A stretch of DNA of 64,000 bases from the NCBI RefSeq assembly GCF_026151205.1, contig NC_087084.1:16218227-16282226 (forward strand), read 5' to 3'. The stretch's first letter is position 1; every line of letters begins with the position of its first letter. Under the pieces are notes generated by a model that searched no databases, had not been told where the DNA came from, and saw only the letters and a list, made by a program, of their open reading frames with translations. The stretch is from Bolinopsis microptera (taxonomy: Eukaryota > Ctenophora > Tentaculata > Lobata > Bolinopsidae). Below are positions 1-49,982 of this stretch, piece by piece. The position numbers were made by a program, and so were the translations under genes.

Positions 1-2535
1 AAGTTCAGCAAGTTTTGTCTTGCCAGCTCTACAATAGATCGTGTCTAAATAATCGAATTGTGGCAACATGAGTGCATTGGCAAACATTTTCCTATATTTA
101 ATGGGTAGCAGTGCTTTACTTCTATACATGGCACCAATTCTCTTCATGACCTTCCTAATAATATAATCTACATGGCTTTTGAAGTTTAATTTACTATCTA
201 GAATGAGGCCAAGATATTTTGTCTCTTTGCACTCCTTGATTGTGAGAGTTACCTCATTACAATCAATGGTTATTTCATCATGTTGGTCAACAGAATCAAA
301 CAATAGGAATTCAGTCTTCTTTTCATTGAGTGATAATTTATTAACACTGAGCCATTTAAAGATTGTCATAAGTTCTATTTTCATGTTTATAAATGTGCTT
401 CTGCAGGTTTGATCAAAGAATAGTGCACCATCATCTGCAAATAGAAAGGGCTTAGATAGGTTACAGGCATAAATGATGTCATTTATGAAGATACTAAATA
501 ATATAGGCCCAATGATGCTTCCTTGTGGTACACCACTCAGAACTTCTAAAAATGAGCTTAGATTGCCATTGATCCTAGTGCATTGATATCTACAAGATAA
601 GAAGTTCTTAAACCAGGTTAAAGCAATGCCACCAATTCCATAATATGCCAATTTTTGAAGCAATATTTCATGATTCACTGTGTCAAAGGCCTTCTTAAGA
701 TCAAGAAAGATGATTCCTGGTTTATAAGACTTAGATTTACTCATATATATTTCGTCCATCAGATCGTACATCAGATAAGTTGTGGAGTGATTTTTCCGAA
801 AGCCATATTGATGCCGGATGAAAAGTTTGTTCTCTTCCATGTAATCAGTGAGTTGCTTGCCGACAAAGTATTCTATAAGTTTTCCTACAAGTGGAAGGAT
901 GGATATTGGCCTGTAATTATTAGGATCATCTTTCATTCCTGCCTTATGGATGGGAGTTACTCTAGCTTTTTTACAAAGGGTTGGTACAACACCTGTATTA
1001 AGGCTCAGATTGACAATGTGGGTCAGTGGCTCAACTATGTGTGGTACAGCTTGCTTAAGTAAAAATAGAGGCACATTGTCATATGAGGCCTTGTCATTCT
1101 TGAGCGTTTCGACATACATTAGGATATCAGTTTCATTTATTTCTTGGAATCTATCAAATGAGATATTAGAAGTTCTAGGAGGTAAAAAATCAGTAAAACT
1201 AACTCTTTCAATACTGGGGGCCTGATTTTGTAATCTTGATCCAACATTTGCAAAATGTAAGTTAAATAGCTCAGGATCATTCTCATTGATAGTTTGACAA
1301 TTAGTTGTACCAGGGGTCGTATTTGATGCCAGTTTGATAGTTTTCCATATCCCTTTAAGATCATTCTTGGCACTTTTAACTTGTAGATCATCGATTACAT
1401 TAGCCTTTTTGCAGGTTTTAGCTAATTTATTTCTAATATTTCTCTGAATCTTGTAGCAATCCCAGGCCTCATTACACTTTATACATTTGCTACATGTACC
1501 ACATTTATTGCAATTTCCATTGTCTCTCTTATCCTTCTTTTTACGGAATTTCTTTAGAAGAAAATGTGTATGATTAATGGCATTTAAAAGTTCAGTAGAA
1601 GGTTTATGTATGAACTTTTCATGCCTTTCTATGGTCTTGCAAGGGAAGAAGGTTGCATATGCCTGTTCAATATGATGACAAAGGCCAGCAGTGATAGCTT
1701 CAACATCTGTACTTTCCAATAGTGGACTGTAATCAGAACAGGTATCTAGATAGTCTAAGAATTGTTTAACATTACGTTTACAATGATTTCTAATTTCAAC
1801 CTTCTCAAATTTAGGAGCTATAGGTACTTTACAATCTATCTCACACATAATAGCTTGATGATCTCCAATACGTTCATCAAGAACAGAAGATTGGACAAAA
1901 TCTGCATAACAGTTAGTGAATATTACATCAATAGTAGTCTGGGTAAAATTGTCTCCACGTTTAGCAACTCTAGTTATCCCTTGAATGGTTTGAACTAGAT
2001 TGTAACATCTCAAGGTCATATCTAATTTTTTGTACTGGGTGGATGAGATATTATTCTGGTCAATGTTTATATCCCCAATCCAGATAACCTTTTTCCCATT
2101 CAATTTTTTCATGCAAAAATGAATGTATTCAATAAAGTTATCAACACTGCAATAATTTCCAGAGCGATAGAAGCAGCAAACATTGATCTTGCTATTCTTA
2201 AGCTTCACCCATAATGCTTCAATGTTATCAAGCTTACTATCCATAACTAATTCTGTGTAAGCTAGTTTTTTGTTTATCATTAAGCCACAACCACCCCTAG
2301 AACTGTTTGGCCTGTCGCATCGCATAAGGTTGAAGGAGGAAGGAATATTTATGGTGTCTGTGTCAATAGTATCATTAAGATTCATCTCATTTAGGGAAAG
2401 TATGTCTAATTTATGATCTCTAATAAGTTGGGAAAGTTCATTACTTTTAGCTAAATTGAGAAGCCCTCCTTGAATGTTACAATGACCAATGCAGAGGTTG
2501 TGAAACCTATCAGCTGCATTATTAAAATTTGTCAT
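1..2535 (-). CDS. LINE ORF2 (CR1/L2-like): endonuclease + reverse transcriptase, open at left edge
   Basis: One uninterrupted minus-strand frame of 845 codons from the ATG at 2535 to base 1. The N-terminal part is an exonuclease-endonuclease-phosphatase (EEP) domain: HCNIQGG near residue 20, LSLNEM, WIGDINID, then GDHQAI. A Cys-rich linker (1456–1512) follows. The RT domain shows the FLDLKKAFDTVNHE, SGVPQGSIIGPILF and FADDGALF motifs. By family knowledge it nicks target DNA and copies LINE RNA by target-primed reverse transcription. ORF1 lies 155 bp upstream on the same strand. No stop or frameshift was found in the part seen, so the copy may be young. The C-terminus and 3'UTR are off-window. 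Clade is inferred from motif style; an SGNH-bearing ORF1 is known in CR1/L2-type LINEs. Confidence 0.9.
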   Translation of the reverse strand, partial: MTNFNNAADRFHNLCIGHCNIQGGLLNLAKSNELSQLIRDHKLDILSLNEMNLNDTIDTDTINIPSSFNLMRCDRPNSSRGGCGLMINKKLAYTELVMDSKLDNIEALWVKLKNSKINVCCFYRSGNYCSVDNFIEYIHFCMKKLNGKKVIWIGDINIDQNNISSTQYKKLDMTLRCYNLVQTIQGITRVAKRGDNFTQTTIDVIFTNCYADFVQSSVLDERIGDHQAIMCEIDCKVPIAPKFEKVEIRNHCKRNVKQFLDYLDTCSDYSPLLESTDVEAITAGLCHHIEQAYATFFPCKTIERHEKFIHKPSTELLNAINHTHFLLKKFRKKKDKRDNGNCNKCGTCSKCIKCNEAWDCYKIQRNIRNKLAKTCKKANVIDDLQVKSAKNDLKGIWKTIKLASNTTPGTTNCQTINENDPELFNLHFANVGSRLQNQAPSIERVSFTDFLPPRTSNISFDRFQEINETDILMYVETLKNDKASYDNVPLFLLKQAVPHIVEPLTHIVNLSLNTGVVPTLCKKARVTPIHKAGMKDDPNNYRPISILPLVGKLIEYFVGKQLTDYMEENKLFIRHQYGFRKNHSTTYLMYDLMDEIYMSKSKSYKPGIIFLDLKKAFDTVNHEILLQKLAYYGIGGIALTWFKNFLSCRYQCTRINGNLSSFLEVLSGVPQGSIIGPILFSIFINDIIYACNLSKPFLFADDGALFFDQTCRSTFINMKIELMTIFKWLSVNKLSLNEKKTEFLLFDSVDQHDEITIDCNEVTLTIKECKETKYLGLILDSKLNFKSHVDYIIRKVMKRIGAMYRSKALLPIKYRKMFANALMLPQFDYLDTIYCRAGKTKLAEL

Positions 2536-2690
2536 CTTGTGAATCTTATTAATTCACAATGGAATGAATAAAAGTTGTAAAGTTGTGTTTAAACTAAAAA
2601 ACAGAATAAAAGCAGGTTGTATTTGTCTGGATGTCGTACTGTAAAAATAAAACTGATGGTAGGAGTGTTATGTCAGTATTCAGCAGTATT

Positions 2691-4343
2691 CTAATGGTGT
2701 GCATGATACTTCAAGTGCCTTGCTAATTTAACTATGCCATAATCATTGAGATGGACATTATCCTTTCCATAACTACTAAAAAATGACGATTTTCTAAAGC
2801 CTTTCTTATCACTAAACAAGAAACGATTTGTCTCGGTTGAGAGCAGTTTTACATAGGTGTATTTTCTTTGCAGATTTGATATACACTCATTGATATCTGT
2901 TATAACCTTGTTTCTGGAGAAACTCTCCCGAGGTAATAAGTTAACAATTTTAATATCAGCTCCAGGTGCCCACTTGTGAAGGAAAAGTACAAGTTTTTCA
3001 ATACAATTGTTTGTAAAGTCAAGAGCTCTAGCATCACCAGAAAAACTATCAGGGCACAGAAGTTTAGTCCTCATGTTGCGAGGGCTGTTCAGGATAGAGT
3101 CCACGTCATTTGTACCACACATAAGTACAATGCTTTTCACATTATTGGTATTAAGAGTGTCTTTTCTTACATCTGATTGAAACCGTTCATTGATTGCATT
3201 GGCTGTGGCACCAGGGTAGCTGAAAACATGTGCCTCATGATGTTTGGACGATAGCTTTTCTCCCTCTAATTTGGAGAACATACTAGAGCTAATGTAGACA
3301 CACGAAGATTTACCAGAATGTTCTATTGATCTAGTCTTAGGGGCCGAGGGTTCAGTGTTCTTAACTTGACTGGAAACATCAGACAGAGTAGATAAGGTTG
3401 CGCTGCCATCAATTAGGCGCAGAGTAATGCTTATTCTCATGGTTTCAGACTTGTCCTGGATGAGGCTGTGTTCAAAGCTGGTCTGGGATTGTCTGGTCAT
3501 ATTCATTATGTCACCATGGGAGAGGGTGAGGTCAGCAATATGAGCTCTAAGTTTGGATCTGAAGCTTAGGACTCTAGTAGCCCCTAAAGAGATGGTGGAG
3601 ATCATGGAGCCTGGTGAAATTGACCTCTCGTCATCCGAGTGAAAGGGAATTCCTTGCTGACCATTTCTATACTTGGTAATCATAGCACTATTGAATTTCA
3701 ACTTTGGGAACTGTGAGCGTAAGTGTTCTAAAATAGACTTTAGGTATGGATTGTCTGCTACTGGCCTTGTGTTATGAAAGCCTCCATTGTAAGCGTAGGG
3801 AAAGTCCCCGTAATATGCAACTGCCCTATTCTCAAACTTATGAGTATAGTGGGTTTCTATATCTAACTTGGCAGTGTCAACAAACTGAAAAACTCCTCGA
3901 CTCAAATCTTGGTATGGATTGATAGAGTTGGTCACATCATTGTCACCATTTACAGAGTGTTTGGGATTTTCCAAATTGATAATTTCTGCTGAATGTTCAC
4001 TGTCTTCTGCTAATTTGGATAGCTCTTGGGTTAACTCAGAAACAAGATGCGAGGATGACCTATTACTGAGGGGAACATTGATAGAATGTTCACAGTGATC
4101 AGGTACCTGGGGCAACACAGGGATAAGTGAACCATCGCTGAGGGGAACTTTGAGTGCACTGTCACTTTCTGATAATTGTTTATAGAGAAAAGAAATTTGC
4201 CGACGAAGACTATCATTCTCTCTTAATAGAGTTAAACAATTTGAACATTTATCAGTAGGACAAGAGCCGTTGCTGGGGAATTTAACAGAATTCCCTCGAT
4301 ATCTCAGATTGTAATGTCTTGAGCCAACTGGTATTCTAGACAT
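2691..4343 (-). CDS. LINE ORF1: AlkB-type dioxygenase fused to SGNH esterase
   Basis: 550 residues, ATG start, intact. Residues ~1–150 are low complexity with scattered Cys/His. Residues ~165–312 match the AlkB-type 2-oxoglutarate/Fe(II) fold: iron ligands H235-x-D237 (PFHSDDE) and H292 (FEHS), SLGATRVLSF (252–261), LSHGDIMNM, and 2OG-binding R303 with R309 in RISITLR. Residues ~345–545 match SGNH/GDSL hydrolase: SSSM (likely nucleophile S354, replacing the usual GDS), YPGAT (G378), CGTNDV (N412) and DNVHLNDYG (D528/H531). Known AlkB proteins remove alkyl groups from nucleic acids; SGNH domains occur in some LINE ORF1 proteins. Acting on LINE RNA or cDNA is inference. I do not recall a described LINE ORF1 with both enzymes. 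Confidence 0.9.
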   Translation of the reverse strand: MSRIPVGSRHYNLRYRGNSVKFPSNGSCPTDKCSNCLTLLRENDSLRRQISFLYKQLSESDSALKVPLSDGSLIPVLPQVPDHCEHSINVPLSNRSSSHLVSELTQELSKLAEDSEHSAEIINLENPKHSVNGDNDVTNSINPYQDLSRGVFQFVDTAKLDIETHYTHKFENRAVAYYGDFPYAYNGGFHNTRPVADNPYLKSILEHLRSQFPKLKFNSAMITKYRNGQQGIPFHSDDERSISPGSMISTISLGATRVLSFRSKLRAHIADLTLSHGDIMNMTRQSQTSFEHSLIQDKSETMRISITLRLIDGSATLSTLSDVSSQVKNTEPSAPKTRSIEHSGKSSCVYISSSMFSKLEGEKLSSKHHEAHVFSYPGATANAINERFQSDVRKDTLNTNNVKSIVLMCGTNDVDSILNSPRNMRTKLLCPDSFSGDARALDFTNNCIEKLVLFLHKWAPGADIKIVNLLPRESFSRNKVITDINECISNLQRKYTYVKLLSTETNRFLFSDKKGFRKSSFFSSYGKDNVHLNDYGIVKLARHLKYHAHH

Positions 4344-8204: not shown

Positions 8205-11200
8205 TCAAATTGACTTGTACTCAAGTATAAAGTTAAACAATTTACTCCAATAACCACGGTCACTAGCAAGTTCTCTCAAATGGAGAATATCATCATACGA
8301 CTCCAGCAAGATGAAACGCTTCCAGAGGTCAACCTTCAGGTGGTGTAGGAGGTTACGTCTGTGAGCCCCGAGTCTACCAACTTCACTACACATCTCGACA
8401 GCAAAACACAGCGCAGCTTGAGCTGGTGATCTTTCATCGCTCCTCAGTATGTGTCCTAGCATCTTCCACCTAGATAACTCAGCACGCTCAGACATAGGGG
8501 TAGAGTTACTCTGTTTGTAGAGGGTATCTTTGGACATCATACTGCGTGGCCAGCTGACATTCATGATCTTTCTGAGGTGGTTACGGTGACATGCATCTAG
8601 TTTGTCCCAGTACGATTTAGGCATTCCCCAGCAACTAGAGTTATACATGAGGATAGATACTACTTGGGCCTCATAGACCTTCAGCTTCTTCTGTAGGGGG
8701 ATCTTACTCTGGCACCAGACCTTCTTGAAGTTCTGGAATGCTACATTGGCTAACATGATTCTTCTGGTGACATCTTTCCTACTTTCTAGCAGAGAACCCA
8801 ACAACTTGCTACTGCACCATTCTTCATTCATTCTAAGGGGTTTACCATCATCCATGACCTCATCTTTCCCAGCTATGTAGACGTGTACAAACTCTGTCTT
8901 TGATTCATTAATATTCAGATTCCACTCTTTGAACACCTTAGTAGCGATAGGGAGGAGGGCTTCTAGAGCATCTTTCTCTTCACCAAGATAGTCGATGTCA
9001 TCAGAGTAGGCATCTTCTTCAGGCATGCCGCTAGGGCTTATAGGGGGGGTTGGTCGCAGCGTCACGGCACGCAGGTGGTAGCAGGCACCAGCTAGAGTGA
9101 TTGTGAAACAGAGGCCTGAAACACTATCACCTTGGGGTCCTCCATTGGTGCTGATGAATACAAGGGAGGTAGCGTCGTTGACTCGCACCTTGATCTTGGT
9201 GTTGCTCAGGAGGAATCTCACTAGTCTGATCTCATCTCTTGTGCACCCTGCGTCGTCTAGGAGGTTGAGCACAGTCTGCCTACTGATAGTATCGAAGGCA
9301 CTGGACATGTCTAGGCCCATCTTGTGGAAAGACCACTCTCTTTCTTTTACAATGCTGATCAACATACGGTGACACCATACCAGGTCTCCACAGCTTCTCT
9401 TCTGCTTGTAGGCAGCTTGCCATGGACCTGTGTAAGCGTCTACCTTTGCTTCAATTCTCCTGAGTGTAATGAGGGATAGCAGCTTACGAGCACAGTTACA
9501 TAATGTCAGGGGTCTGAGGCTTTTCAGTTCACCAGGAGTCTTGCCAGGCTTTTGAAGAGGGGTGATGAAACATTCTCCGACAGCGTCAAGGAACAGGTTC
9601 TCTTCAAAGCAGGTGTTAATGATTTTGGCGTAATGGACACATAGCGCACTCCCACCATACTTGAGGAGCTCATTGGGGGTATTGTCAGGTCCATTGGCTT
9701 TGCCGTTCTTGAGGCGTTTAGCAGCGGTTTTTACCTCATATTCTGTGATAGGGCAGTCGAGGGGAGAAGGGGGACCGTCAAACGGATCAAGGGCAGGTTC
9801 ATCTCCAGTCAGCTGTTCTTCATACCAATCACGGAGTACTTCAGCTTTAGCGAGGTCTGTACCAATGGGGTACCCATCCTTATTGTGGACAACTATAGGC
9901 TTTGTCTCTTTGGTCTTAGCTAAGGATCTCACAGCTTCGAACATTTGACGCGTGTCGTCAGTTGATGAAATTTCTTCAGCTAACTGGTCAGCCTTAGCAC
10001 ACTCTAGCTCTTTCAGTCTCTTTTTGATGTCTTTACCGAGCTTATTTCTCCGTCCTCGCAGTACAGAGCTATCACAGGGCTTGTTGGTGCTTGCCAGGGC
10101 AAGGCGTATATCGTGTCGTTCTGCGACTAGGGCAACAACAGTAGGGTCATTAGAGAAGAAGCACTTATTCTTAGCCTTCCTGTAGCCTAGGGTCTCAGCA
10201 GCTGACTTATGAACTTCACCCAGTACTACTGCAAAGTCCTTGTTGGGATCACCTGAGGGTATTACAGTAGAAAGTCTACTAGCAATGTCATGTTCATACG
10301 CTCGTTTACAATCGGGGTCTGATGTGAGCCTGCGAGTGTCAAACATTTTAGGACGTTTAGGAGCTTTAGCGTAGAACAGGGGGCGTTTAGACAATTCAAT
10401 CGTACATATTACAAGCCTATGGTCAGAACTAAACACCATACCGTTGTGCGACCTAGCATCTCTGAGCAGACATTTACTTCTTCTTTTACAAAGAATATAA
10501 TCTATCTGAGTAAACACTTTACGCTTTTTACCAGACTGACCTTTGACATTAACCAAACCCTCGTAAGTGGTCCGATGACTCGCACGGTGAAGGAAGGCAG
10601 TATTAGCAGCAAACAAGTCGTTTCTACACATGAAGTTGAGAAGGTAGTGACCATTATGATTCCTTTTACCCATACCGTGCCTGCCGACATAATCTGACAC
10701 ACCATTTACATAGTCTGAGTCATCAAGCTTACCCAGCTTACCGTTGAAATCTCCCATCACAAACAACTCGTATCTTGAAGGAACGACAATAGCTGAACTG
10801 ACTTGCTTGTACACTTTCCTAACAATTTCTGGTCTGAGTTCTGATTTGGTGTTGGTAGGGCAGTACACATTGACGGCTCTAAACATGACGGGTTCACCGT
10901 GCTTTACAGGCAATCTGAAATCTATCCACGCAACACGGTCACTGACACGATGATATTGAACAATGTACGGTACTAGCCGCTTTGATACCACAAACCCCAG
11001 TCCTGCATACCAGGCATCCTTTTGTTCAATGATAATCAACTTATTGCCACAGGGTAACATTGCTTCAGATGGCTGAGTGATCTTAGTTTCTTGAAGGGCT
11101 ATAACGTCTAATTTATATTGAGTACAGTCACGTCCTAATATATGTTGGTCTACTTCTTTACTCAGCCCACGAACATTAAATGTTACAAGGGCTAGAATGA

Positions 11201-11564
11201 GTGAGAGAGGGAGCAACTTAGGGACGATGAGTAGAGGGTTAGATGCTGCAGCAGGAGTAATCTGTGTCTCCCTGCTTCTGCTGATGTTCCTGTCGTCATC
11301 ACTGGTCATTCCACCTAATAAATCACGAAACGAAACGAAACGAAACACAATATTTACTACCGGCCACACCATCTCCTGGAACAACATCGAAGTCCTCAAA
11401 TCCCTCACCTCACGCTCCCAACTTGACCTCACAGAACACGCAGCTATACAAATACGACAACCAGCTATGAACAGAACAGACCGCGCACCCAAATGTAGTT
11501 CCCTCTGGGACCCCATTCTTCCTAAAATTGCCAAATCCTTAAAGTCCAGACCATCTGGATTCAA
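8205..11564 (-). CDS. LINE ORF2 with YSDD reverse transcriptase
   Basis: 1,119-codon open frame on the minus strand. Residues ~125–395 are an EEP endonuclease: FNVRGLS (N130), IALQETK (E159), MGDFNGKLG (D272/N274), SSDHRLV (D381/H382). Residues ~600–900 are reverse transcriptase: KMGLDMSSAFDTISR (D752), NGGPQGDSVSG (810–817), AYSDDIDYL (853–860). The C-terminal part ends in the LINE thumb-like region (ILMYNSSCWG, RWKMLGHILR). The first ~120 residues do not resemble the domain, so the true start is probably an internal Met. It is full length and intact. It is related to the partial element at 62834–64000. The catalytic box is YSDD instead of the usual YADD. Confidence 0.9.
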   Translation of the reverse strand: MNPDGLDFKDLAILGRMGSQRELHLGARSVLFIAGCRICIAACSVRSSWEREVRDLRTSMLFQEMVWPVVNIVFRFVSFRDLLGGMTSDDDRNISRSRETQITPAAASNPLLIVPKLLPLSLILALVTFNVRGLSKEVDQHILGRDCTQYKLDVIALQETKITQPSEAMLPCGNKLIIIEQKDAWYAGLGFVVSKRLVPYIVQYHRVSDRVAWIDFRLPVKHGEPVMFRAVNVYCPTNTKSELRPEIVRKVYKQVSSAIVVPSRYELFVMGDFNGKLGKLDDSDYVNGVSDYVGRHGMGKRNHNGHYLLNFMCRNDLFAANTAFLHRASHRTTYEGLVNVKGQSGKKRKVFTQIDYILCKRRSKCLLRDARSHNGMVFSSDHRLVICTIELSKRPLFYAKAPKRPKMFDTRRLTSDPDCKRAYEHDIASRLSTVIPSGDPNKDFAVVLGEVHKSAAETLGYRKAKNKCFFSNDPTVVALVAERHDIRLALASTNKPCDSSVLRGRRNKLGKDIKKRLKELECAKADQLAEEISSTDDTRQMFEAVRSLAKTKETKPIVVHNKDGYPIGTDLAKAEVLRDWYEEQLTGDEPALDPFDGPPSPLDCPITEYEVKTAAKRLKNGKANGPDNTPNELLKYGGSALCVHYAKIINTCFEENLFLDAVGECFITPLQKPGKTPGELKSLRPLTLCNCARKLLSLITLRRIEAKVDAYTGPWQAAYKQKRSCGDLVWCHRMLISIVKEREWSFHKMGLDMSSAFDTISRQTVLNLLDDAGCTRDEIRLVRFLLSNTKIKVRVNDATSLVFISTNGGPQGDSVSGLCFTITLAGACYHLRAVTLRPTPPISPSGMPEEDAYSDDIDYLGEEKDALEALLPIATKVFKEWNLNINESKTEFVHVYIAGKDEVMDDGKPLRMNEEWCSSKLLGSLLESRKDVTRRIMLANVAFQNFKKVWCQSKIPLQKKLKVYEAQVVSILMYNSSCWGMPKSYWDKLDACHRNHLRKIMNVSWPRSMMSKDTLYKQSNSTPMSERAELSRWKMLGHILRSDERSPAQAALCFAVEMCSEVGRLGAHRRNLLHHLKVDLWKRFILLESYDDILHLRELASDRGYWSKLFNFILEYKSI
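11326..11346. repeat. (CGAAA)n microsatellite
   Basis: Four copies of a CGAAA-type pentamer at the 5' end of the LINE ORF2 region, followed by AATATTTACTACC. A similar arrangement occurs near 20003–20035, suggesting a shared repeat segment. Confidence 0.6.
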
Positions 11565-12054: not shown

Positions 12055-12927
12055 TCACTTTGATATCTTGTCCTCACAACAAATAATACCCCTTCTGATA
12101 TAATATCGTCTTTTCAAATCCTTCTTTGCCTTCTCTTTCATCTCCAAAACGAGCAGATGATGTCTGGCTTGCTCTTCAGGTGACCGATCTGGTGAAATGA
12201 ACACAGTTTTGTGGTGCTCACTTAGTTTCAGGTTTTTCGATTTTAATAAAATCTGATGTACAGTATTCGAATTTGATAGCAAAATTTTGACAGGTCTGGT
12301 CTTGTCAGCTGATTTCCTTCCAATCCTTACAGCTTTAAAGTGGGGTTTCACTTCAATCTGTTGAAAAAGTTCGTCTACTTTGTTTGATAGTTTCTCTTCA
12401 TCTGTCTCCTTTAAACCAAAAATGAGAACATTCCTGCTGCGATCGTCTTCTGACACAGCCTTCTGCACAACTTTTTTCAGGCTCTCCTCCGTTATTGTAG
12501 TGTTCGGCGAGGCTTTTAACACAGCTTGACTGTATGACTTGATCTCAGCTTGAACAGTGTCCTGAACAGCAGATTTTACTGCGGTCTGAACGGATTCCAA
12601 CTGATTGGCTTTGGCTTCAAGAAGTTCCCTCTGCAGTTTGATAACCGACTCTTGTGATCGGATGAGAAAACTCTTCAATTCCTCAACATCTTTCATTGCA
12701 GTCAAAGTTTCTCCGACGATAGAATTCAACTGATTGTACATATTATACATCAAATTTGATAAAACCTTCTTGACTGGCTTTTCAAACTTTTCAACTGAAA
12801 ACACTATTCTACTTTCACAGTTCGTGGCTTTTGCCACATTCGAAATTAAAGCGTTGAAATCCTCATGCGCTTCGTTGAAAAATGTAGAGTGTCCTGATAA
12901 ACGCTGCAGTAAATCTGTGTCCTCCAT
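12055..12927 (-). CDS. LINE ORF1-like protein: coiled coil plus RRM-like core
   Basis: 290-residue ORF upstream of the YSDD ORF2 on the same strand. Residues ~85–130 are heptad-rich (LQRELLEAKANQLESVQTAV), a likely coiled coil for trimerisation. RNVLIFGLKE (165–174) begins an RRM-like nucleic-acid-binding core, and the region up to ~270 (AVRIGRKS, FISPDRSPEEQARHHLL) matches the arrangement of L1-type ORF1 proteins. Family knowledge: such proteins bind LINE RNA and act as chaperones in the RNP. The spacer of ~490 bp to ORF2 is long, so belonging to the same element is likely but not proved. Confidence 0.7.
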   Translation of the reverse strand: MEDTDLLQRLSGHSTFFNEAHEDFNALISNVAKATNCESRIVFSVEKFEKPVKKVLSNLMYNMYNQLNSIVGETLTAMKDVEELKSFLIRSQESVIKLQRELLEAKANQLESVQTAVKSAVQDTVQAEIKSYSQAVLKASPNTTITEESLKKVVQKAVSEDDRSRNVLIFGLKETDEEKLSNKVDELFQQIEVKPHFKAVRIGRKSADKTRPVKILLSNSNTVHQILLKSKNLKLSEHHKTVFISPDRSPEEQARHHLLVLEMKEKAKKDLKRRYYIRRGIICCEDKISK

Positions 12928-14199
12928 TATAATGTACTTAACTTGTATTACAAGGCTACACAGTGGTCGCAGTGCAATTAAACGATTTTACTGATAAGAG
13001 AGCAACTGTTATCAACACACAAGCTAAAACACATTAACGATACAAATCTAAATTTAAATTCAGCTATATACACAATACACAGCCCGCCTCGCAGACAGCC
13101 ACACATTGCTGAGAGATTCTCAGGTGCAGATGTAAGCGCCGCGCGCGCGAGGTTTGTTATGCTAATAATAACGGAAAATTCTGAGGCACGAGTTTCATTC
13201 AGCTGCCCAATTTATATGTGACATGTATTTGTATTAAATTCAGATAAATGTTAGTAATAATCGACGCTAACATTGTGCAACTGTAAACTGCAAAATGTTA
13301 ACGTCGATTACCACTAAATCACATCTAGCAAGTTACTAATTCTTTGCACTATATATGTTACGTCACTATAGAATATAAAATTTGTTTCACTATAGCATAT
13401 GTCATTCATATTGTACGTTATATAAGATAAAAATAAACATTTTATAATTGTTTCAATGTTCAACACTGCTAAAAAACAAATACCTACTTGCCCATCGATT
13501 AAGCAGTCGCCAAAACAAGGCTCAAAGTTAATTTACCTTCACACCTCGTTTTGGAGACTGAAGGATGTCAATAAATAAATAATGGATAATATTAATACTG
13601 AATATGATGGATAATCAGTAATATCAATAAAATCCACAATCACTAATCATGTTTTCGATGGGCAAGCACCCGCAACTGGATGCTGAAACAAACGGCGCAA
13701 GTCTTGCACCGTTCATGCAGCATACGTCGCGAGATATCATGAGCTCCGCTAACTCTGCGATTCTAACGGATGAATTAGGCTCCCCCGACAGAAACACAGG
13801 TAATAGGGGGTTGTGGAAGGACACGAACACTGTTCGTTAACTCGTACCCCCTATATAGATCTATGTCCCGCCGGAGAGAGCCCACCACCAGTCATATCGA
13901 AAGCAGCTTTTAATTCTGCATTATAAATATCGCTTCGCCATAATAAATAATATACATTACCACTACACACTTGTCACTACACACTTTTATGCACAGTACA
14001 ACTAAAATATTAACAAGAGACAGAAGAGTTTTACATCGGCTCAGCACCGCAAGGACGTTGGCTATACGCGTGGTTCATAAATTAGTTTGATTTGGGTACG
14101 GTTCGACGGGGAAAGTGGTCGGGATTAGTTCTCATAATGAGTGATCACTGTCGTCAGAAATATTAGAGCGGGAACTTCCCCAGGTTCTGGACGAAACGC
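12928..14199. other. Probable LINE 5'UTR and unannotated DNA
   Basis: Upstream of the ORF1 at 12927. Includes a GC-rich patch with CGCGCGCGCG at ~13139–13149 and, at 13649–13803 plus strand, a 52-codon open stretch starting with ATG and ending in a possible donor (ACAG/GTAATA). The latter could be a small exon but has no recognisable domain. Confidence 0.3.
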
Positions 14200-26040: not shown

Positions 26041-27885
26041 ATACACGCTTAACATGTTACTGTTTGCTAACCAATACAGCAATACTGGGGTAGGTTCACT
26101 GATAGTGTTTCTCAGAGATATAGATGGCTGTAAATTATGCTAATAAATATATAAAAATAAATATGGTCAAATGTTAAACAATGAGATGATTTAAGAGAAG
26201 CAAATATTAGTCGACTGAAATTATGATCTGATAAAGTGCACTGTGAACTCAAATGTATAAAACAAACTCATAACGGATCGAACAGTTTAAAATGGAACAC
26301 AATAAGACAGAATAATTGATCAAATTTTAAACAATAAGCTTCACTTATAGTGTTTCTCAGAGATGGCTGTAAATTATGCTAATAAATGTCCACTTTTTGG
26401 ACTGGAAACATGAATGTAGGGAATAAATCAATAATACTGTTTGCTAACCAATATTGGGGTATGTTCACTGCACTTATAGTGTTTCTCAGAGATGGCTGTA
26501 AATTATGCTAATAAATGTCCACTTTTTGGACTGGAAACATGAATGTAGGGAATAAATCAATAATACTGTTTGCTAACCAATATTGGGGTATGTTCACTTA
26601 TAGTGTTTCTCAGAGATAGATGGCTGTAAATTATGCTAATAAATGTCCACTTTTTGGACTGGAAACATGAATGTAGGGAATAAATCAATAATACTGTTTG
26701 CTAACCAATATTGGGGTATGTTCACTTATAGTCTTTCTCCGAGATGGATTTAAATTATGCTTATTTAGGGAATTAATCAGTTGAACTGTTTGCTAGCCAA
26801 TACTGGGATAGGGTCACTTATAGTGTTTCTCAGAGATAGATGGCTGTAAATTATGCTAATAAATGTCCACTTTTTGGACTGGAAACATGAATGTAGGGAA
26901 TAAATCAATAATACTGTTTGCTAACCAATATTGGGGTATGTTCACTGCACTTATAGTGTTTCTCAGAGATGGCTGTAAATTATGCTAATAAATGTCCACT
27001 TTTTGGACTGGAAACATGAATGTAGGGAATAAATCAATAATACTGTTTGCTAACCAATATTGGGGTATGTTCACTTATAGTGTTTCTCAGAGATGGCTGT
27101 AAATTATGCTAATAAATGTCCACTATTTGGACTGGAAACATTTTAGGGAAAATTTAATCAATAAAATACTGTTTGCTAGCCAATATTGGGGTAGGTTCAC
27201 TTATAGTGTTTCTCAGAGATATATGGCTGTAAATTATGCTAATAAATGTCCACTTTTTGGACTGGAAACATGATTGTAGGGAATGAATCAATAATACTGT
27301 TTGCTAACCAATATTGGGGTATGTTCACTTATAGTGTTTCTCAGAGATGGCTGTAAATTATGCTAATAAATGTCCACTATTTGGACTGGAAACATTTTAG
27401 GGAAAATTTAATCAATAAAATACTGTTTGCTAACCAATATTGGGGTAGGTTCACTTATAGTGTTTCTCAGAGATATATGGCTGTAAATTATGCTAATAAA
27501 TGTCCACTTTTTGGACTGGAAACATGATTGTAGGGAATGAATCAATAATACTGTTTGCTAACCAATATTGGGGTATGTTCACTTATAGTGTTTCTCAGAG
27601 ATGGCTGTAAATTATGTTAATAAATGTCCACTATTTGGACTGGAAACATGATTGTAGGGAATAAATCAATAATACTGTTTGCTAACCAATATTGGGGTAT
27701 GTTCACTAATTATAGTGTTTCTCAGAGATAGATGGCTGTAAATTATGCTAATAAATGTCCACTTTTTGGACTGGAAACATGATTGTAGGGAATAAATCAA
27801 TAATACTATTTGCTAACCAATATTGGGGTATGTTCACTAATTATAGTGTTTCTCAGAGATGGCTGTAAATTATGCTAATAAATGT
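26041..27885. repeat. ~127-bp satellite array, left part
   Basis: About 13 tandem units, regular from 26338. Each has TATAGTGTTTCTCAGAGATG, GGCTGTAAATTATGCTAATA, TCCACTTTTTGGACTGGAAA and GTTTGCTAACCAATATTGGG. Some units are shortened (e.g. 26723–26816). The array resumes after the LINE at 32410. Confidence 0.95.
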
Positions 27886-28005
27886 ATCTGACCCATAAGT
27901 CAGAACTCTTCCGGTGGGTTGTCTTTATTGTTTTCTGTTGGAGTCTCGACTGTCTTACAAGTTTACAATCCTTACACAGCAACCCCTGACCTACTAAACT
28001 TAGCT

Positions 28006-29334
28006 ATGCCTGATTCTCCTAAATCATCTATAACTTTCTCTCCCCAGAACACAGAGGGTACAAGGACCTACATAGCTGCTCCCAACATCATACAAAATGA
28101 TTGTTGTAACCACTGTCAGGAGGGAGTTAATCCTGACTACAGAGTTCAGTGTTATGACTGTAAAAACTATTTCCATGCGGTAGGCTGCACAGATGATTCC
28201 TATTGTGTTAGTGCCCCATCTAGCTTCACTTCCCATTTGGGACCAGCTGTTTCTAACACCAAGTCCTATGAGAAAAGATTTGGCAGATTCTTGTTCTTTT
28301 GTAACCATTGTATTACAGTTAAAGAGGAGATGACAGAGCAAAGCACAGGGGGAGCTGCTAATGTTTACGTTGACAGAAAGATTGAGGAGTTAAAGCAGAA
28401 TTTTGCTGAAGAACTGTCCGGTGTAAAAGAGATGCTTAAGGAAATCTTGCCAAGTAAGCAAAACAATGCTCTAGCAAAACCTCCAATGACTCCCTGCAAC
28501 CCATGGGATGATTCTCAGAGGACTGAGAAACTTCGCAGCATGATTGTAATTAAGAATGATCAGAGTGGCAAACCAATTGATAAAAGTATGTTGGAAGAAA
28601 GCTGCATCAAGAATAAGATTAGTATTGTTAACACAATGAAGCTCAAATCTAATGATACTGCCGTTATTCTTAACTCTAGGTCTGAGGCAGAAACATTGCG
28701 TGAGAAGCTTAGCAAAGCTTCCCCCCAACATAGTACATCAACCGTAGCCACAAAGTTACCAAGAATAACAGTTGTTGGTCTTGAGCGTGATTACTTGAAG
28801 GGGGAAATAAAGGAAATGATAGTTAGTCAAAACCATGGAATAGATCTGCTCATCAATGATCCAGGTACCAGTATAGAAGACAAGAAAATTGATGTAGTAG
28901 CTATAGTACCCCTAAAGAATGACCAGAACTCCTTCAAAGCCATTGTTCGTGTCAGTAATCTTGTACGATCTGCAATTGCTAAACAAGGTGATAAGCTCTT
29001 TATTGGAACTCAGAGAGTTTGCAAAGTCTATGATAGCTTCTTTGTCCTCAGATGTTTTAACTGTCAATCATTTGGTCACCATAGCAAAAGTCACCAAGGT
29101 CATTGCAAAAGTGAACATGTCTGTGGCTTTTGTGCAGGAGCACATGAAACACGGACATGTGATCGCTCCGCTCCATTGTGTTGTTCAAACTGCAAGAAAG
29201 CTGGTAAGCATGGCAATGAGCTTCTACATGCAGCCTATGATCCTGTTTTGTGCCCCATATTCAAAGATTTGCAGGAGAAAGTTAAAAAGACCACCCCTTT
29301 TTACCAAAGCCACAACACAGACAGAAATCACTGA
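28006..29334 (+). CDS. LINE ORF1: PHD-like finger and zinc knuckles
   Basis: 442 codons from the ATG at 28006; the frame is open a little upstream from TTG. A PHD/treble-clef-like finger (28099–28316: CCNHCQEG, CYDCKNYFHAVGC, FFCNHC) is followed by a coiled-coil-prone stretch (VDRKIEELKQNFAEEL) and C-terminal gag-like knuckles (29051–29270: CFNCQSFGHH, CGFCAGAHETRTC, CCSNCKKAGKHG). Family role: RNA-binding LINE ORF1 of the CR1/L2 group, forming the retrotransposition RNP. No break was seen. Confidence 0.85.
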   Translation: MPDSPKSSITFSPQNTEGTRTYIAAPNIIQNDCCNHCQEGVNPDYRVQCYDCKNYFHAVGCTDDSYCVSAPSSFTSHLGPAVSNTKSYEKRFGRFLFFCNHCITVKEEMTEQSTGGAANVYVDRKIEELKQNFAEELSGVKEMLKEILPSKQNNALAKPPMTPCNPWDDSQRTEKLRSMIVIKNDQSGKPIDKSMLEESCIKNKISIVNTMKLKSNDTAVILNSRSEAETLREKLSKASPQHSTSTVATKLPRITVVGLERDYLKGEIKEMIVSQNHGIDLLINDPGTSIEDKKIDVVAIVPLKNDQNSFKAIVRVSNLVRSAIAKQGDKLFIGTQRVCKVYDSFFVLRCFNCQSFGHHSKSHQGHCKSEHVCGFCAGAHETRTCDRSAPLCCSNCKKAGKHGNELLHAAYDPVLCPIFKDLQEKVKKTTPFYQSHNTDRNH

Positions 29335-29393
29335 GCTGTCTGAAATTCTTCCTTTTCAATCCATGGTCACTTGTTAACAAAGTAAACGATATT

Positions 29394-32207
29394 ATGTGCA
29401 ACTTATCAGACAAAAGCATTGATATTGCTGCATTCTGTGAAACTTGGCTAACAGATGTTAACTGCCCCACCACTGCAATTATTAAGTCTTACGGTTACAG
29501 AATCATACATAATTTCAGGAAAGACAAAAAAGGTGGTGGAACTGCTTTGTTGTTTAGGGGAGAATACTCAATGTCTCAGTTCCAATGCTCTGCTACTTTC
29601 TCTACATTTGAGTACACAGCTGCATCAATCAAAACAGCAACAGGCACTAAGGTCATGTTTGTCTCTTTGTATCGACCTGGTTATCTCTCCTCTATCTTTC
29701 ATCAGGAACTTGATTTACTTCTGTCAGCCATCACCATGAAGTGTGATTGTCTCGTCATTGCTGGGGACTTGAACATTCATTTTGAGAATAAGAATGACAA
29801 GCTTGTTAGGAAGACGCTTGACTTATTTCTGTCTTACGGATTTAATCATCATGTTAATGAACCAACCCATGTTGCTGGTGGATCACTAGACCAAATCTTC
29901 TGCTTCTCTATCAAGAATCAGCTTCAATGCAAGGTTTTGGTTGATAGTGTGAATAGGCATGGATCAGATCATTTTCCAGTCTATTGTGACTTCTCTTTGG
30001 AATTCGAAAAGAAATATTTTAAAGATATCACTTACAGAAATTTGAAGACTGTGGATGATGACCAATTTACCAGTGATCTCTTCGATATAGTAAACTTGAT
30101 TGATCTTGGGAAAATTGGAACTACTGATATGAGTGCATCTGTTGCCAACTTGAACGACTTGTGTGCTGAACTCCTAGATGAGCATGCTCCAATAGTCTCC
30201 AAGAAGGTATCTGTTATTGATTCTGCACCTTGGTTTGATAATGAATACAGGGACTACAGAAAGCTGAGAAGAAAAGCCGAGGCAAAAACTCGTAAACCAA
30301 CAGCAACGCTTGAAGATAAAATCATGTTTAGAGACATCAGCTCAGAATGTTCTAAAATGGCTGATCTGAAGAAGAAGGAGTACTTTAAGAATATGGTAGA
30401 AAACTCTAAAGGCAACCCAAGAACTTTGTGGCAGCTGGTCAATAGAAATTTAGACCGTAAACAATCTAATCCTCTGCCAGATTACACAGATGATCTTCCA
30501 AAGCTAGCAGCAGACTTTAACGCCTACTTTACATCTAAGATTGATAACATTAGGAAAGATATGGATCATGATCGGTTTACTCTTCCATCAGACTCTTCTG
30601 CTGAAGCTCCCGAATCCTACCACTGGTCTACCTTTGAACCTGTCACATTAGATGAGCTAAAGGAAATCATTGACGAGTTTGGTATCAAATGTTCACCTTC
30701 TGACATCTTACCTACTACACTGCTTAAAGAGAACATCAGCATTCTGCTACCATTACTTCTACAGATTGTTAATGCATCCTTATCTCAAGGTTCAATGGAC
30801 GGAGTCAAACTTGCTGATATTGTTCCCCTCCTGAAAAGTAACTCTCTTGATCCTAATGTCTTGAAAAACTTTCGCCCTGTCTCAAACCTCACTTTCCTTG
30901 GGAAGCTAATCGAGAGAGTGGTGTTAAAGCGCCTAAACGATCACTTAGATAAGCATAATCTCCACTGCCCAGAACAGTCTGCATACAAGAAGACCTTCAG
31001 CACAGAAACATTATTGATCAGAATATGGAATGATCTTCTAGTTGCATCAGATGAAAAGAGTGCTACAGTTGTCATGATGCTTGACCTATCGGCGGCGTTT
31101 GATACTGTAGACCATGATGTCTTACTGAACATTCTCATGAAGGAGATAGGACTAAGGGGCACTGTGTTAAAATGGTTTACTAGCTTTCTAAAAGGTCGTG
31201 CTCAGAGAATTCGACTTGGTTCTACTCTCTCTGAAGAAATAGTTATTAAGTTTGGTGTTCCTCAGGGCTCAGTTCTGGGACCTGTTCTGTTTAACCTTTA
31301 TATCAGATCCATCTATAGATTTGTACAAGGAATGGACTTCACAATTTATGGGTATGCAGATGACCACCAGATCTTAAAGAGATTTAAACCCATCAACCAG
31401 TGCGAAACGTTACTCTCTAAGCTCAGGGGATGCTTTGCATCTATTAGAGCTTGGATGAAAAAATACTTTCTAGCAATGAATGACAGTAAAACACAGATAA
31501 TGGTTTTTGGTCCTATGTCCGTCCTACGAGAGATCAATATAAAGGGAGTGAATTTTGGGAGTGACACAACTATTCGATTTGTGAGCACAGTTAAGAATCT
31601 TGGGATACATATGGACTCTGGGCTTACTATGAGCAACCATGTTGTTGAGTTGAAGAAGAAATGTTTCCTAACACTACGCAACCTCACTAAGATAAGGTTT
31701 CTGCTGACTACAAAACAGCTTAAGACAATTGTTAATAGCCTCGTTGTTTCTTGTTTGGACTACTGTAACGCCATGTTTTACGGCATCTCCAAGTACCTCA
31801 TACATCAACTACAGCTTATTCAAAATGCCTGTGCAAAAGCAGTAACTGGAAAATATAAATTTGATCACCTAGGCGACGATCTTGATAAATTGCACTGGCT
31901 TAATATACCTAAAAGAGTGATTTTTAAAATATGTCTCCTATCTTTTAAGGCTATTAATGGAATAGCGCCACTGTACCTTCAAGATATGTTTAAGTATGCT
32001 CACCATGGACACACTGTTAGGCTCATAGTCCCTTATCGTTCAACCAAGGGTTTTGGTGATCGTAGTTTTAGTGTGGTTGGTCCACGAGTTTTTAATACAC
32101 TACCAGACTCAGTTAAACAATGTTATTCTGTTGAGGCGTTTAAGTCCGCACTGAAGACTTATTTGTTTACTTTATCTGACACTGAGGTAGCAAAAATGTT
32201 TTATTAA
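29394..32207 (+). CDS. LINE ORF2: EEP endonuclease + reverse transcriptase
   Basis: 937 codons. Endonuclease: FCETWL, VIAGDLNIHF, GSDHFPV. Reverse transcriptase: NFRPVSNLTFLGKLIERVV, MMLDLSAAFDTVDHDVL, FGVPQGSVLGPVLFNLYI, IYGYADDHQILK. The C-terminal tail (GDRSFSVVGPRVFNTLPDSV, then FKSALKTYLF) is typical of the CR1/Rex1/L2 group. The first endonuclease strand (FNPWSLVNKVNDI) lies upstream of the ATG at 29394 in the same open frame, which overlaps the end of ORF1, so the real start is probably upstream or reached by frameshifting or reinitiation. The copy looks intact. Confidence 0.92.
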   Translation: MCNLSDKSIDIAAFCETWLTDVNCPTTAIIKSYGYRIIHNFRKDKKGGGTALLFRGEYSMSQFQCSATFSTFEYTAASIKTATGTKVMFVSLYRPGYLSSIFHQELDLLLSAITMKCDCLVIAGDLNIHFENKNDKLVRKTLDLFLSYGFNHHVNEPTHVAGGSLDQIFCFSIKNQLQCKVLVDSVNRHGSDHFPVYCDFSLEFEKKYFKDITYRNLKTVDDDQFTSDLFDIVNLIDLGKIGTTDMSASVANLNDLCAELLDEHAPIVSKKVSVIDSAPWFDNEYRDYRKLRRKAEAKTRKPTATLEDKIMFRDISSECSKMADLKKKEYFKNMVENSKGNPRTLWQLVNRNLDRKQSNPLPDYTDDLPKLAADFNAYFTSKIDNIRKDMDHDRFTLPSDSSAEAPESYHWSTFEPVTLDELKEIIDEFGIKCSPSDILPTTLLKENISILLPLLLQIVNASLSQGSMDGVKLADIVPLLKSNSLDPNVLKNFRPVSNLTFLGKLIERVVLKRLNDHLDKHNLHCPEQSAYKKTFSTETLLIRIWNDLLVASDEKSATVVMMLDLSAAFDTVDHDVLLNILMKEIGLRGTVLKWFTSFLKGRAQRIRLGSTLSEEIVIKFGVPQGSVLGPVLFNLYIRSIYRFVQGMDFTIYGYADDHQILKRFKPINQCETLLSKLRGCFASIRAWMKKYFLAMNDSKTQIMVFGPMSVLREINIKGVNFGSDTTIRFVSTVKNLGIHMDSGLTMSNHVVELKKKCFLTLRNLTKIRFLLTTKQLKTIVNSLVVSCLDYCNAMFYGISKYLIHQLQLIQNACAKAVTGKYKFDHLGDDLDKLHWLNIPKRVIFKICLLSFKAINGIAPLYLQDMFKYAHHGHTVRLIVPYRSTKGFGDRSFSVVGPRVFNTLPDSVKQCYSVEAFKSALKTYLFTLSDTEVAKMFY

Positions 32208-32410
32208 TAATTTTAACCCTCTCTTTGACATATCTAAATTATATTAGCTTTTTGGAAGTTTTATGAACGAATTTATACATAGAACTTTATTTTGCTTTTG
32301 ATATATAGTTTTAAAAGTATTTTTGTAAACTAGTTGTAGTGACACTGCTGAGTAAAAGTGTACGCTTAATAGTGGTGTTTTTAAATTTCAATTTTAATTA
32401 ATTAATTAAT

Positions 32411-33072
32411 GTCCACTATTTGGACTGGAAACATTTTAGGGAAAATTTAATCAATAAAATACTGTTTGCTAATTGCTAGCCAATATTGGGATTTGGGGTA
32501 GGTTCACTTATAGTGTTTCTCAGAGATAGATGGCTGTAAATTATGCTAATAAATGTCCACTTTTTGGACTGGAAACATGATTGTAGGGGATAAATCAATA
32601 ATACTGTTTGCTAACCAATATTGGGGTGTGTTCACTTATAGTGTTTCTCAGAGATGGCTGTAAATTATGCTAATAAATGTCCACTATTTGGACTGGAAAC
32701 ATTTTAGGGAAAATTTAATCAATAAAATACTGTTTGCTAACCAATATTGGGGTAGGTTCACTTATAGTGTTTCTCAGAGATGGATTTAAATTATGCTAAT
32801 TTAGGGAATTAATCAGTTGAACTGTTTGCTAGCCAATACTGGAATAGGGTCACTTATAGTGTTTCTCAGAGATATAAGATGGCTGTAAATTATGCTAATA
32901 AATGTCCACTTTTTGGACTGGAAACATGAATGTAGGGAATAAATCAATAATACTGTTTGCTAACCAATATTGGGGTATGTTCACTTATAGTGTTCCTCAG
33001 AGATGGCTGTAAATTATGCTAATAAATATCCACTATTTGAACTGGAAATAATTTAGGGAGTTAATCAATAGA
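32411..33072. repeat. ~127-bp satellite array, right part
   Basis: Five or more further units, starting mid-unit exactly where the left array was cut by the LINE. The array is interrupted again at ~33073 and resumes at ~33625–33690 with a degenerate unit. Confidence 0.92.
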
Positions 33073-48700: not shown

Positions 48701-49945
48701 TCCCCCTCCTCCCCGTCCTCTCCAGTCCCCCTCCTTCTCCTCCCCCTTTTTCCGTCCTCCCCCTCCCCCCTCCTTTTCAGTTTCCCCCAGTCCTCCTTCT
48801 CTTTCTCCTAAGTCCTCCTCCTGAACCCCCCCCCCGGGTGGGTCCTCCTCTTTTTCCCTTTTGAGTCCTCCTCCTGGGTTCCCCCTCCTTTAAGTCCTCC
48901 CCCTGAGTCCTCCCTCTTTCTAAATCCTCTCCCGAGTCCTCCTCCTGAGTTCCCCCTCCCGAGGCCCCTTTCCTCCCCCCGTCATCCTCCTCATTTATCC
49001 CCCTCAAACCCTTCCCCCAAAAATTTCCCCCTCCCGCCATCCCCCTCAGTACTCCTCAGTCCTCCCCCTCAGTCCCCCTCAGTTCTCCTCCCCCTGGGTC
49101 CTTCCTCCTCCTCCCCCTTGGGTCCCAGGGGGTTTTGATCCTCCCAGTCCCCTTCCTCCCCCCTCCTCAGTCCTCCTCCTATCCTCCTCCTCGTCCTAGT
49201 CTCCTTTATCGCCCCAAAAAGTTTCCTCCTCCCGGGCCCTCCCTTTTCCTTTTGGGGGGCCTTTTTTCCCGGGTTTCCCCCTCTGGGCCCCCCCTCCGGG
49301 GGGCCTCCCTTTCCTTTGGGTCCTCCTTCTCCCCCCTCAGTCCTTCTCCTCCTCCCCCTCAGTCCCCTTTCCCCTCTTCCTCCTCCCCTCCCTCTCCCGT
49401 CATCCTCCCCAACCTTTCCCCCAGCCATCCCCCTCGTCTCCCCCTTCTCAGTCCTCCTCAGTTCTCCTCCCCGGTTCAAACCCCCGAGTCAAACCTCCTA
49501 AATTTCTCCCCTCCCTTCCCCTTGGTCCTCCTCCTCCTCCTCCCTTTGGGGCTTCCCGTCCTTCTCCCCCCTCAGTATTTCCCCCCGTCATTCCCCCTCA
49601 TTCCTCCTCCCCCAGCCCTTTCAGCCTCCTTTCCCCGCCATCCTTTCAGCCCCTCCTCCCCGAAATTTCTACTTCCGAATCTTCAGTCCTCCAAAAAGTT
49701 TGTTTGCTAAAGTTCCAAAAAAGGCCCTATTTTTCCCCCCCAATTTTCCCCTTCCCCCCAATCCGGGGTTTCCCCAAAGTCCGTCGAGTCCGCCAAAGCG
49801 TCCCAGTTCCCCCAAAGTCCTTTTCCCGGGCCCCCAAAATGGGGCCCGTCCGTGTTTTCCCCCAAATTCCCAAAAAACCCGTCCGTTTCCCCCCAAGGGA
49901 ACCAAAAAAAAGGGCCCGGGGCATAGTCGGGCATAGACGGACATG

Positions 49946-49982
<37 letters not shown>

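Follow-up and report, generated by a model that had tools for sequence, protein, structure and literature searches.

An AlkB-type dioxygenase joined to a predicted SGNH hydrolase in the ORF1 protein of a LINE

Why would the first protein of a long interspersed nuclear element (LINE) carry a dioxygenase of the AlkB type, and does that enzyme belong to the element at all? The question is raised by a stretch of 64,000 nucleotides from Bolinopsis microptera (NC_087084.1, positions 16,218,227 to 16,282,226; the whole stretch is called the window below), in which one open reading frame (ORF), the ORF1 of a LINE, joins an AlkB domain to an SGNH hydrolase domain and stands before an ORF2 for an endonuclease and reverse transcriptase (EN-RT). 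LINE ORF1 proteins (ORF1p) are poorly understood. Types with an esterase and with a PHD finger have been published (PMC3905857, PMC4120745), and the esterase-type ORF1p (PMC3905857) provides the precedent for SGNH domains in some LINEs on which the original prediction of this fusion drew; its other precedent, AlkB domains in plant RNA viruses, is also on record, mainly for Flexiviridae (PMC544882). The known kind of protein here is the esterase-type LINE ORF1, and what is new is the AlkB enzyme, unreported there within the literature searched. We consider it somewhat probable that the element is a LINE with an esterase-type ORF1p in which an ALKBH2/3-like dioxygenase, placed between coiled coil and esterase, demethylates the element's own RNA or cDNA.

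ORF1 ran on the minus strand (window 4343..2691) through 550 codons without interruption, and the single frame with both AlkB and SGNH domains that had been predicted, with no strand given, was borne out. Its features are as follows.

2691..4343, minus strand: LINE ORF1, 550 amino acids, with probable coiled coil, AlkB dioxygenase and SGNH hydrolase (ORF, Pfam, alignment, model)
4161..4244, minus strand: long predicted helix, ORF1 residues 34-61, probable coiled coil, starting within a CxxC motif (C33, C36) (DSSP on the AlphaFold model)
3405..3929, minus strand: AlkB (Fe(II)/2-oxoglutarate dioxygenase) domain, ORF1 residues 139-313 (Pfam, PDB sequence matches, fold)
3633..3641, minus strand: HxD iron-binding motif, ORF1 residues 235-237, H-S-D followed by D-E (H235 and D237 in 104/104 aligned rows)
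2694..3317, minus strand: SGNH hydrolase domain, ORF1 residues 343-550, with S354, G378, N412, D528 and H531 (Pfam, alignment, fold)

The AlkB part matched the Pfam family 2OG-FeII_Oxy_2 at residues 192-309 (E 7.3e-19, exceeding the family's cut-off), and its predicted model showed the double-stranded beta-helix fold of AlkB on fold comparison. Residues H235, D237, H292, R303 and R309 stood at the positions claimed, in the sequence and in the alignment, and the structural match to AlkB on which the original prediction was made to depend was obtained both by sequence and by predicted fold. The SGNH part gave a weak Pfam match (Lipase_GDSL_2 at residues 366-536, E 2.2e-4, 22.2 bits against a cut-off of 32.9), despite which its SGNH fold was clear in the predicted structure. 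The catalytic S, G, N and H blocks were present together with the D, so that the full set of SGNH blocks claimed earlier stands except for the form of block I, which reads S-S-S (residues 352-354) rather than G-D-S. The helix at residues 34-61, a probable coiled coil, had a pLDDT of about 73-80 in the AlphaFold model. Pfam matched neither an RNA recognition motif (RRM) nor a CCHC motif in the window ORF1, and no PHD finger in the ORF1s of the window lineage.

The conservation of the protein was analyzed in relatives found by a homologue search over about 5.8 billion proteins. There were 119 ORF1 relatives, all at E 4.4e-5 or better, 118 of which are marked by Pfam as carrying AlkB in their database entries. 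This number of relatives, together with E values of 1e-13 (single sequence) and 9e-27 (profile) against solved AlkB proteins, excludes a chance resemblance. The alignment held 104 rows, the window ORF1 and 103 of the 119 relatives; omitted were near-identical partial copies (P0001, P0002), near-duplicates (P0035-P0040, P0042-P0045), a chimeric gene model (P0051), two fragments (P0084, P0089) and P0093. The pattern HxD ... H ... RxxxxxR was complete in the family, H235, D237, H292, R303 and R309 being kept in 104/104 rows, as were E239, M282, Q287 and the SGNH serine S354. The other SGNH residues were kept almost as strictly (G378 in 102/104, N412 in 103/104, D528 and H531 each in 97/104), and the seven exceptions at D528/H531 were gaps in six rows and different residues in one, P0114. 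The S-S-S form of block I is typical of the family, with S352 in 96/104 and S353 in 95/104 rows around an invariant catalytic serine. The mean share of the majority residue was 0.54 in both the AlkB and SGNH domains, against 0.34 and 0.25 in the linkers, 0.42 in the N-terminus and 0.43 in the helix. AlkB and SGNH identities were correlated (r 0.79 over 4656 pairs from 97 rows), which shared descent alone would also give. The pattern looks like that of a working two-enzyme protein; since any protein in a database is an open frame by its very origin, such conservation is no substitute for dN/dS.

This conservation bears on the idea that the dioxygenase fold was retained solely as an RNA-binding or assembly module, its catalysis unused. 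ORF1 proteins need to bind nucleic acid; those of the esterase type have no structured domain for binding RNA (PMC3905857), and an AlkB fold could provide one. An invariant set of iron and 2-oxoglutarate residues, in 104/104 rows here and 64/64 rows of a second lineage described below, is nevertheless hard to explain without iron/2-oxoglutarate chemistry, and we regard a purely structural role as quite unlikely. The organism-labelled relatives were all from Mnemiopsis leidyi (4/119, and 12 of the 120 listed in the further ORF1 search that yielded the second lineage). Scans of IMG/VR and of bacterial and archaeal genomes gave pattern matches, but 0 confirmed relatives.

To which AlkB proteins the domain is closest was determined against solved structures. 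The single-sequence search matched ORF1 to human ALKBH2 (E 9.6e-14), and the family profile ranked ALKBH3 (9e-27) and ALKBH2 (4e-25) well ahead of E. coli AlkB (5e-6), ALKBH8 (7.5e-6), ALKBH5 (1e-3) and NMAD-1 (0.049). ALKBH2 was the top fold match of the predicted domain, the stretch of the alignment that precedes the core resembles ALKBH3 (YG..PY.YS), and the iron motif of the family is mostly HSD[DN]E, where ALKBH3 has HSDDE and ALKBH2 has HRDDE. Among solved structures, ranking by profile score strongly favours ALKBH2 and ALKBH3, and the domain is probably ALKBH2/3-like. ALKBH2 and ALKBH3, the best matches in sequence and structure, share the fold and the same iron/2-oxoglutarate residues with the ORF1 domain, but are cellular repair enzymes with no hydrolase fusion and no mobile element, and are 23-31% identical to it in structural alignments. 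ALKBH3 acts on N1-methyladenine (m1A) and N3-methylcytosine (m3C) (PMC10816986).

The ranking also bears on a different substrate, N6-methyladenosine (m6A), whose erasure from element RNA could allow escape from control based on RNA modification. This has been proposed for a Ty3/Gypsy element of the orchid Phalaenopsis, a retrotransposon that, like the one described here, has captured an AlkB dioxygenase, reported to bind RNA and to demethylate it in vitro (PMC9289625). The orchid element is of the plant long terminal repeat (LTR) type with a separate additional ORF that is ALKBH5-like, whereas the window element is a LINE with an EN-RT ORF2 and has its ALKBH2/3-like AlkB inside ORF1, fused to an esterase. 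The sequence groups the family with ALKBH2/3 and leaves ALKBH5 far behind; moreover, in L1 elements m6A promotes retrotransposition and ALKBH5 suppresses it (PMC7873242), so that an m6A eraser would be expected to be harmful there. On the profile ranking, an m6A eraser is placed below an m1A/m3C eraser, and we consider it unlikely. Viral replicase and polyprotein AlkBs were also among the structural matches. The plant RNA viruses, mainly Flexiviridae, resemble the LINE in being RNA replicons with an AlkB thought to protect their own RNA (PMC544882), but differ from it in that the AlkB is embedded in a replicase polyprotein and there is no reverse transcription.

The esterase side of the protein was compared with zebrafish ZfL2-1, a type IV ORF1p of CR1/L2 LINEs (PDB 4c1a, 4c1b; PMC3905857). 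The LINE clades from which esterase ORF1s are known are CR1, L2 and RTEX. Both have an SGNH domain C-terminal to a coiled coil, no RRM, and an ORF that precedes EN-RT. The window ORF1 has the composition of type IV, a coiled coil (the predicted helix 34-61) plus esterase without an RRM, and in addition an AlkB domain of about 175 residues between the two, which is not in the published type. It also differs from ZfL2-1-type proteins in block I, and the match of the family profile to 4c1b was weak (E 0.79). The absence of 4c1b from the 50 entries shown by VIA-align says nothing about membership.

A second lineage of AlkB-bearing ORF1s was found outside the window, comprising P0119 and its relatives and the Mnemiopsis leidyi models P0314 and P0315. 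These proteins have a PHD-like finger, a long helix, AlkB and an SGNH domain of the GDS type, and the residues corresponding to H235, D237, H292, R303 and R309 were present in 64/64 rows. The profile of this lineage matched 4c1b at E 3.9e-4 over residues 7-164 of the 171 in the chain. Comparison of the two lineage profiles gave a probability of 100 over 353 columns at 24% identity, which favours a common AlkB-SGNH ancestor, exchange of ORF1 being the alternative; the EN-RT proteins of the two are only about 28% identical. The finding is thus larger than the single ORF1 originally noted, a family with two lineages. More tentatively, and with somewhat less confidence than we place in the reading of the window element itself, a superfamily of animal LINEs, probably of ctenophores and of sufficient age to have divided into two lineages, which differ in their N-terminal modules (short zinc/coiled coil in one, PHD/coiled coil in the other) and as widely in EN-RT as just given, may use its own ORF1 demethylase to keep RNA and cDNA readable, base methylation then being a real barrier to retrotransposition.

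The PHD-like finger is of the chromatin-reader type, and it points to another possible target: at the target site, the AlkB part might work on the DNA or chromatin of the host, for instance where the DNA is alkylated or N6-methylated, and so make target-primed reverse transcription easier or keep the new copy from being silenced. ALKBH2, the top fold match, is a duplex DNA repair enzyme, and in mouse embryonic stem cells loss of host Alkbh1 leads to more N6-methyladenine on young L1s along with repressive marks (PMC4982230; similarly PMC8535693), so that a LINE-borne demethylase could shield its own copies. On the other hand, Pfam shows no PHD finger in the window lineage, and the solved DNA N6-methyladenine demethylase NMAD-1 stands at the bottom of the profile ranking given above. 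Action at the target site is, in our judgement, improbable too, marginally more so than erasure of m6A.

Whether the AlkB domain belongs to a LINE was analyzed from the ORF that follows and from its association with EN-RT elsewhere. The remaining features of the element are as follows.

2539..2690, minus strand: spacer of 152 bp between the ORF1 stop and the ORF2 start
1..2538, minus strand: ORF2, endonuclease and reverse transcriptase, with 846 codons in view and no stop before the window edge
1915..2481, minus strand: endonuclease domain (Exo_endo_phos), ORF2 residues 20-208 (Pfam E 1.6e-7)
202..945, minus strand: reverse transcriptase domain (RVT_1) with FADD, ORF2 residues 532-779 (Pfam E 5.8e-36)

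ORF1 lies upstream of ORF2 on the same strand, as in a LINE, and within ORF2 the endonuclease precedes the reverse transcriptase, as in LINEs of the APE type. ORF1 had been placed directly upstream of an intact EN-RT ORF; the 152-bp distance agrees with this, and intactness was confirmed for the visible 846 codons only, the frame being open from the ATG at 2538 through base 1 of the window. The closest ORF2 relative, P0120, is 97% identical to the window ORF2 and may be another copy from the same genome. It has 991 residues, so the window stops short of about the last 145 residues of ORF2 and of the element's 3' end. The solved structures that best matched P0120 were the R2 and LINE-1 ORF2 proteins (E 3.8e-12 and 6.7e-11). 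Database clusters had 71 members for the nearest ORF2 and nine for the nearest ORF1, numbers that may hint at many copies. The search with ORF2 gave 168 matches, of which 120 were listed; the only bacterial name among those listed was that of P0187, labelled as a Tenacibaculum metagenome-assembled genome, which is most simply explained as eukaryotic DNA in a bacterial bin. An RT tree of 22 rows (16 chosen from the 120 listed ORF2 matches, two models of the second lineage and four RTs from the window) grouped the window ORF2 with its relatives and left the second lineage outside, although long branches meet in it. All rows came from the present two-lineage family or from three further LINEs in the window, and the tree is used for no clade assignment.

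In other sequences the same association was found. Two Mnemiopsis leidyi gene models, P0314 and P0315, have AlkB, EN and RT in this order within one predicted protein, and their SGNH part is readable in the sequence between AlkB and EN. ORF1 and ORF2 matches also shared contigs of identical size, among them 834,619 and 203,281 bases, for which 400 shifted values gave 0 such pairs. There were five equal sizes in all, against a mean of 0.71 at shifted values (119 ORF1 matches, 120 listed of 168 ORF2 matches); the three smaller contigs may include a chance match, and the linkage rests on the two large ones, equal size not implying that ORF1 and ORF2 are adjacent there.

Three gene models, all from Mnemiopsis, weigh against the AlkB domain being a regular part of the LINE. 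P0281 and P0282 have EN or RT fragments ahead of the AlkB ORF, an arrangement to be expected from nesting or from faulty gene models, and the AlkB-EN-RT order is thus seen in two of the four Mnemiopsis models with both ORF1 and ORF2 parts. P0093, the lone relative without the AlkB mark, has a window-type N-terminus and an SGNH domain with AlkB absent, either through a missed exon or through real loss. Such models might arise if a host AlkB gene or a nested element lay beside EN-RT by accident. Against such an artefact stand the shared frame of AlkB and SGNH, both in the window and, barring shortened rows, in 103 aligned relatives, the LINE order in P0314 and P0315, and the two large equal-size contigs. 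The separate nested gene that the original prediction named among the findings that would refute it is therefore strongly disfavoured; we rejected it, these contrary rows notwithstanding, as very unlikely indeed.

With the AlkB enzyme taken as part of the LINE, a demethylase acting on the element's own nucleic acid could work as follows. The ORF1p would pack the element RNA by means of its coiled coil, a role that has been suggested for other ORF1ps too, and the SGNH part would have the function in lipids or membranes that has been proposed for the esterase of zebrafish ZfL2-1 and for esterase-type ORF1ps (PMC3905857). The AlkB part, tethered to the ribonucleoprotein and using Fe(II), O2 and 2-oxoglutarate, would strip bases methylated on their Watson-Crick face, m1A and m3C, of the methyl group, either in the RNA of the element or in its newly made single-stranded cDNA. 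ALKBH3 prefers single strands, and m1A and m3C lesions block reverse transcriptase. On a demethylated template, the RT would not be blocked and the copy would not be lost. The earlier reading of the domain as a remover of alkyl marks from LINE RNA or cDNA is in this respect supported, as a probable function.

Captured enzymes are known from other retroelements. Bdelloid rotifer LTR and Athena retroelements have captured GDSL/SGNH hydrolases (PMC5408684), but the LTR elements carry the SGNH as a separate ORF3 and there is no AlkB, neither AlkB nor dioxygenase being mentioned in that paper. Retrotransposons of dinoflagellates and charophytes have likewise acquired a nucleic-acid-modifying enzyme, a cytosine methyltransferase, which differs in being a writer rather than an eraser and in its hosts (PMC5890265). 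No description of AlkB in a LINE ORF1 was found among the best-ranked open-licence PMC matches, at the level of titles and beginnings of abstracts; Repbase reports lay outside this scope, so a prior description is possible. Within the same scope there was no LINE ORF1 with both AlkB and SGNH, as had been supposed. PMC4120745, on LINE ORF1p types, likewise mentions neither AlkB nor dioxygenase, the word dioxygenase is absent from PMC12221973, on ctenophore chromatin, and the AlkB of the LINE reviews PMC4982230 and PMC8535693 is, in the parts available, the host enzyme ALKBH1.

A demethylase conserved in an ORF1p suggests that in an animal lineage methylated bases, as damage or as marks, limit retrotransposition enough to select for a self-encoded remedy. 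One point mutation could address whether mobility is restricted when the RNA or cDNA of a retroelement is alkylated or carries m1A/m3C methylation. The protein may also be a new demethylase of single-stranded RNA or DNA, useful for sequencing methods in which the RT has to read through m1A and m3C.

Other features of the window were noted. Exon-like minus-strand pieces of an ABCB/P-glycoprotein-type transporter gene were seen by eye between 4728 and 7850, with the AlkB LINE downstream; as they are on the same strand, the LINE seems to lie in sense orientation inside an intron of this gene. With these pieces the window has an animal-like look. A second LINE-type EN-RT ORF of 1119 codons occupies 8205-11564 (minus), an upstream ORF of 310 codons (12055-12987, minus) could be its ORF1, and a related RT piece lies at 62834-64000. 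A further LINE at 27892-32207 (plus) has a zinc-finger/CCHC-looking ORF1 and an EN-RT ORF2 that overlap slightly; on either side of it are tandem repeats that resemble each other, with periods of about 124 bp and multiples of this (26340-27885 and 32403-33023). The stretch 47928-49946 is strongly C-rich (2-kb GC 0.59, GC skew -0.60), with long open frames of low-complexity proline/serine/leucine; an unusual satellite or an error of assembly could account for it. At 57547-62385, units of about 391-486 bp that are related to one another form tandem arrays and might be exons duplicated together with introns, and a 529-codon open frame at 44389-45978 (plus) has, by eye, repeated granulin-like cysteine motifs (CCSDxxHCCP).
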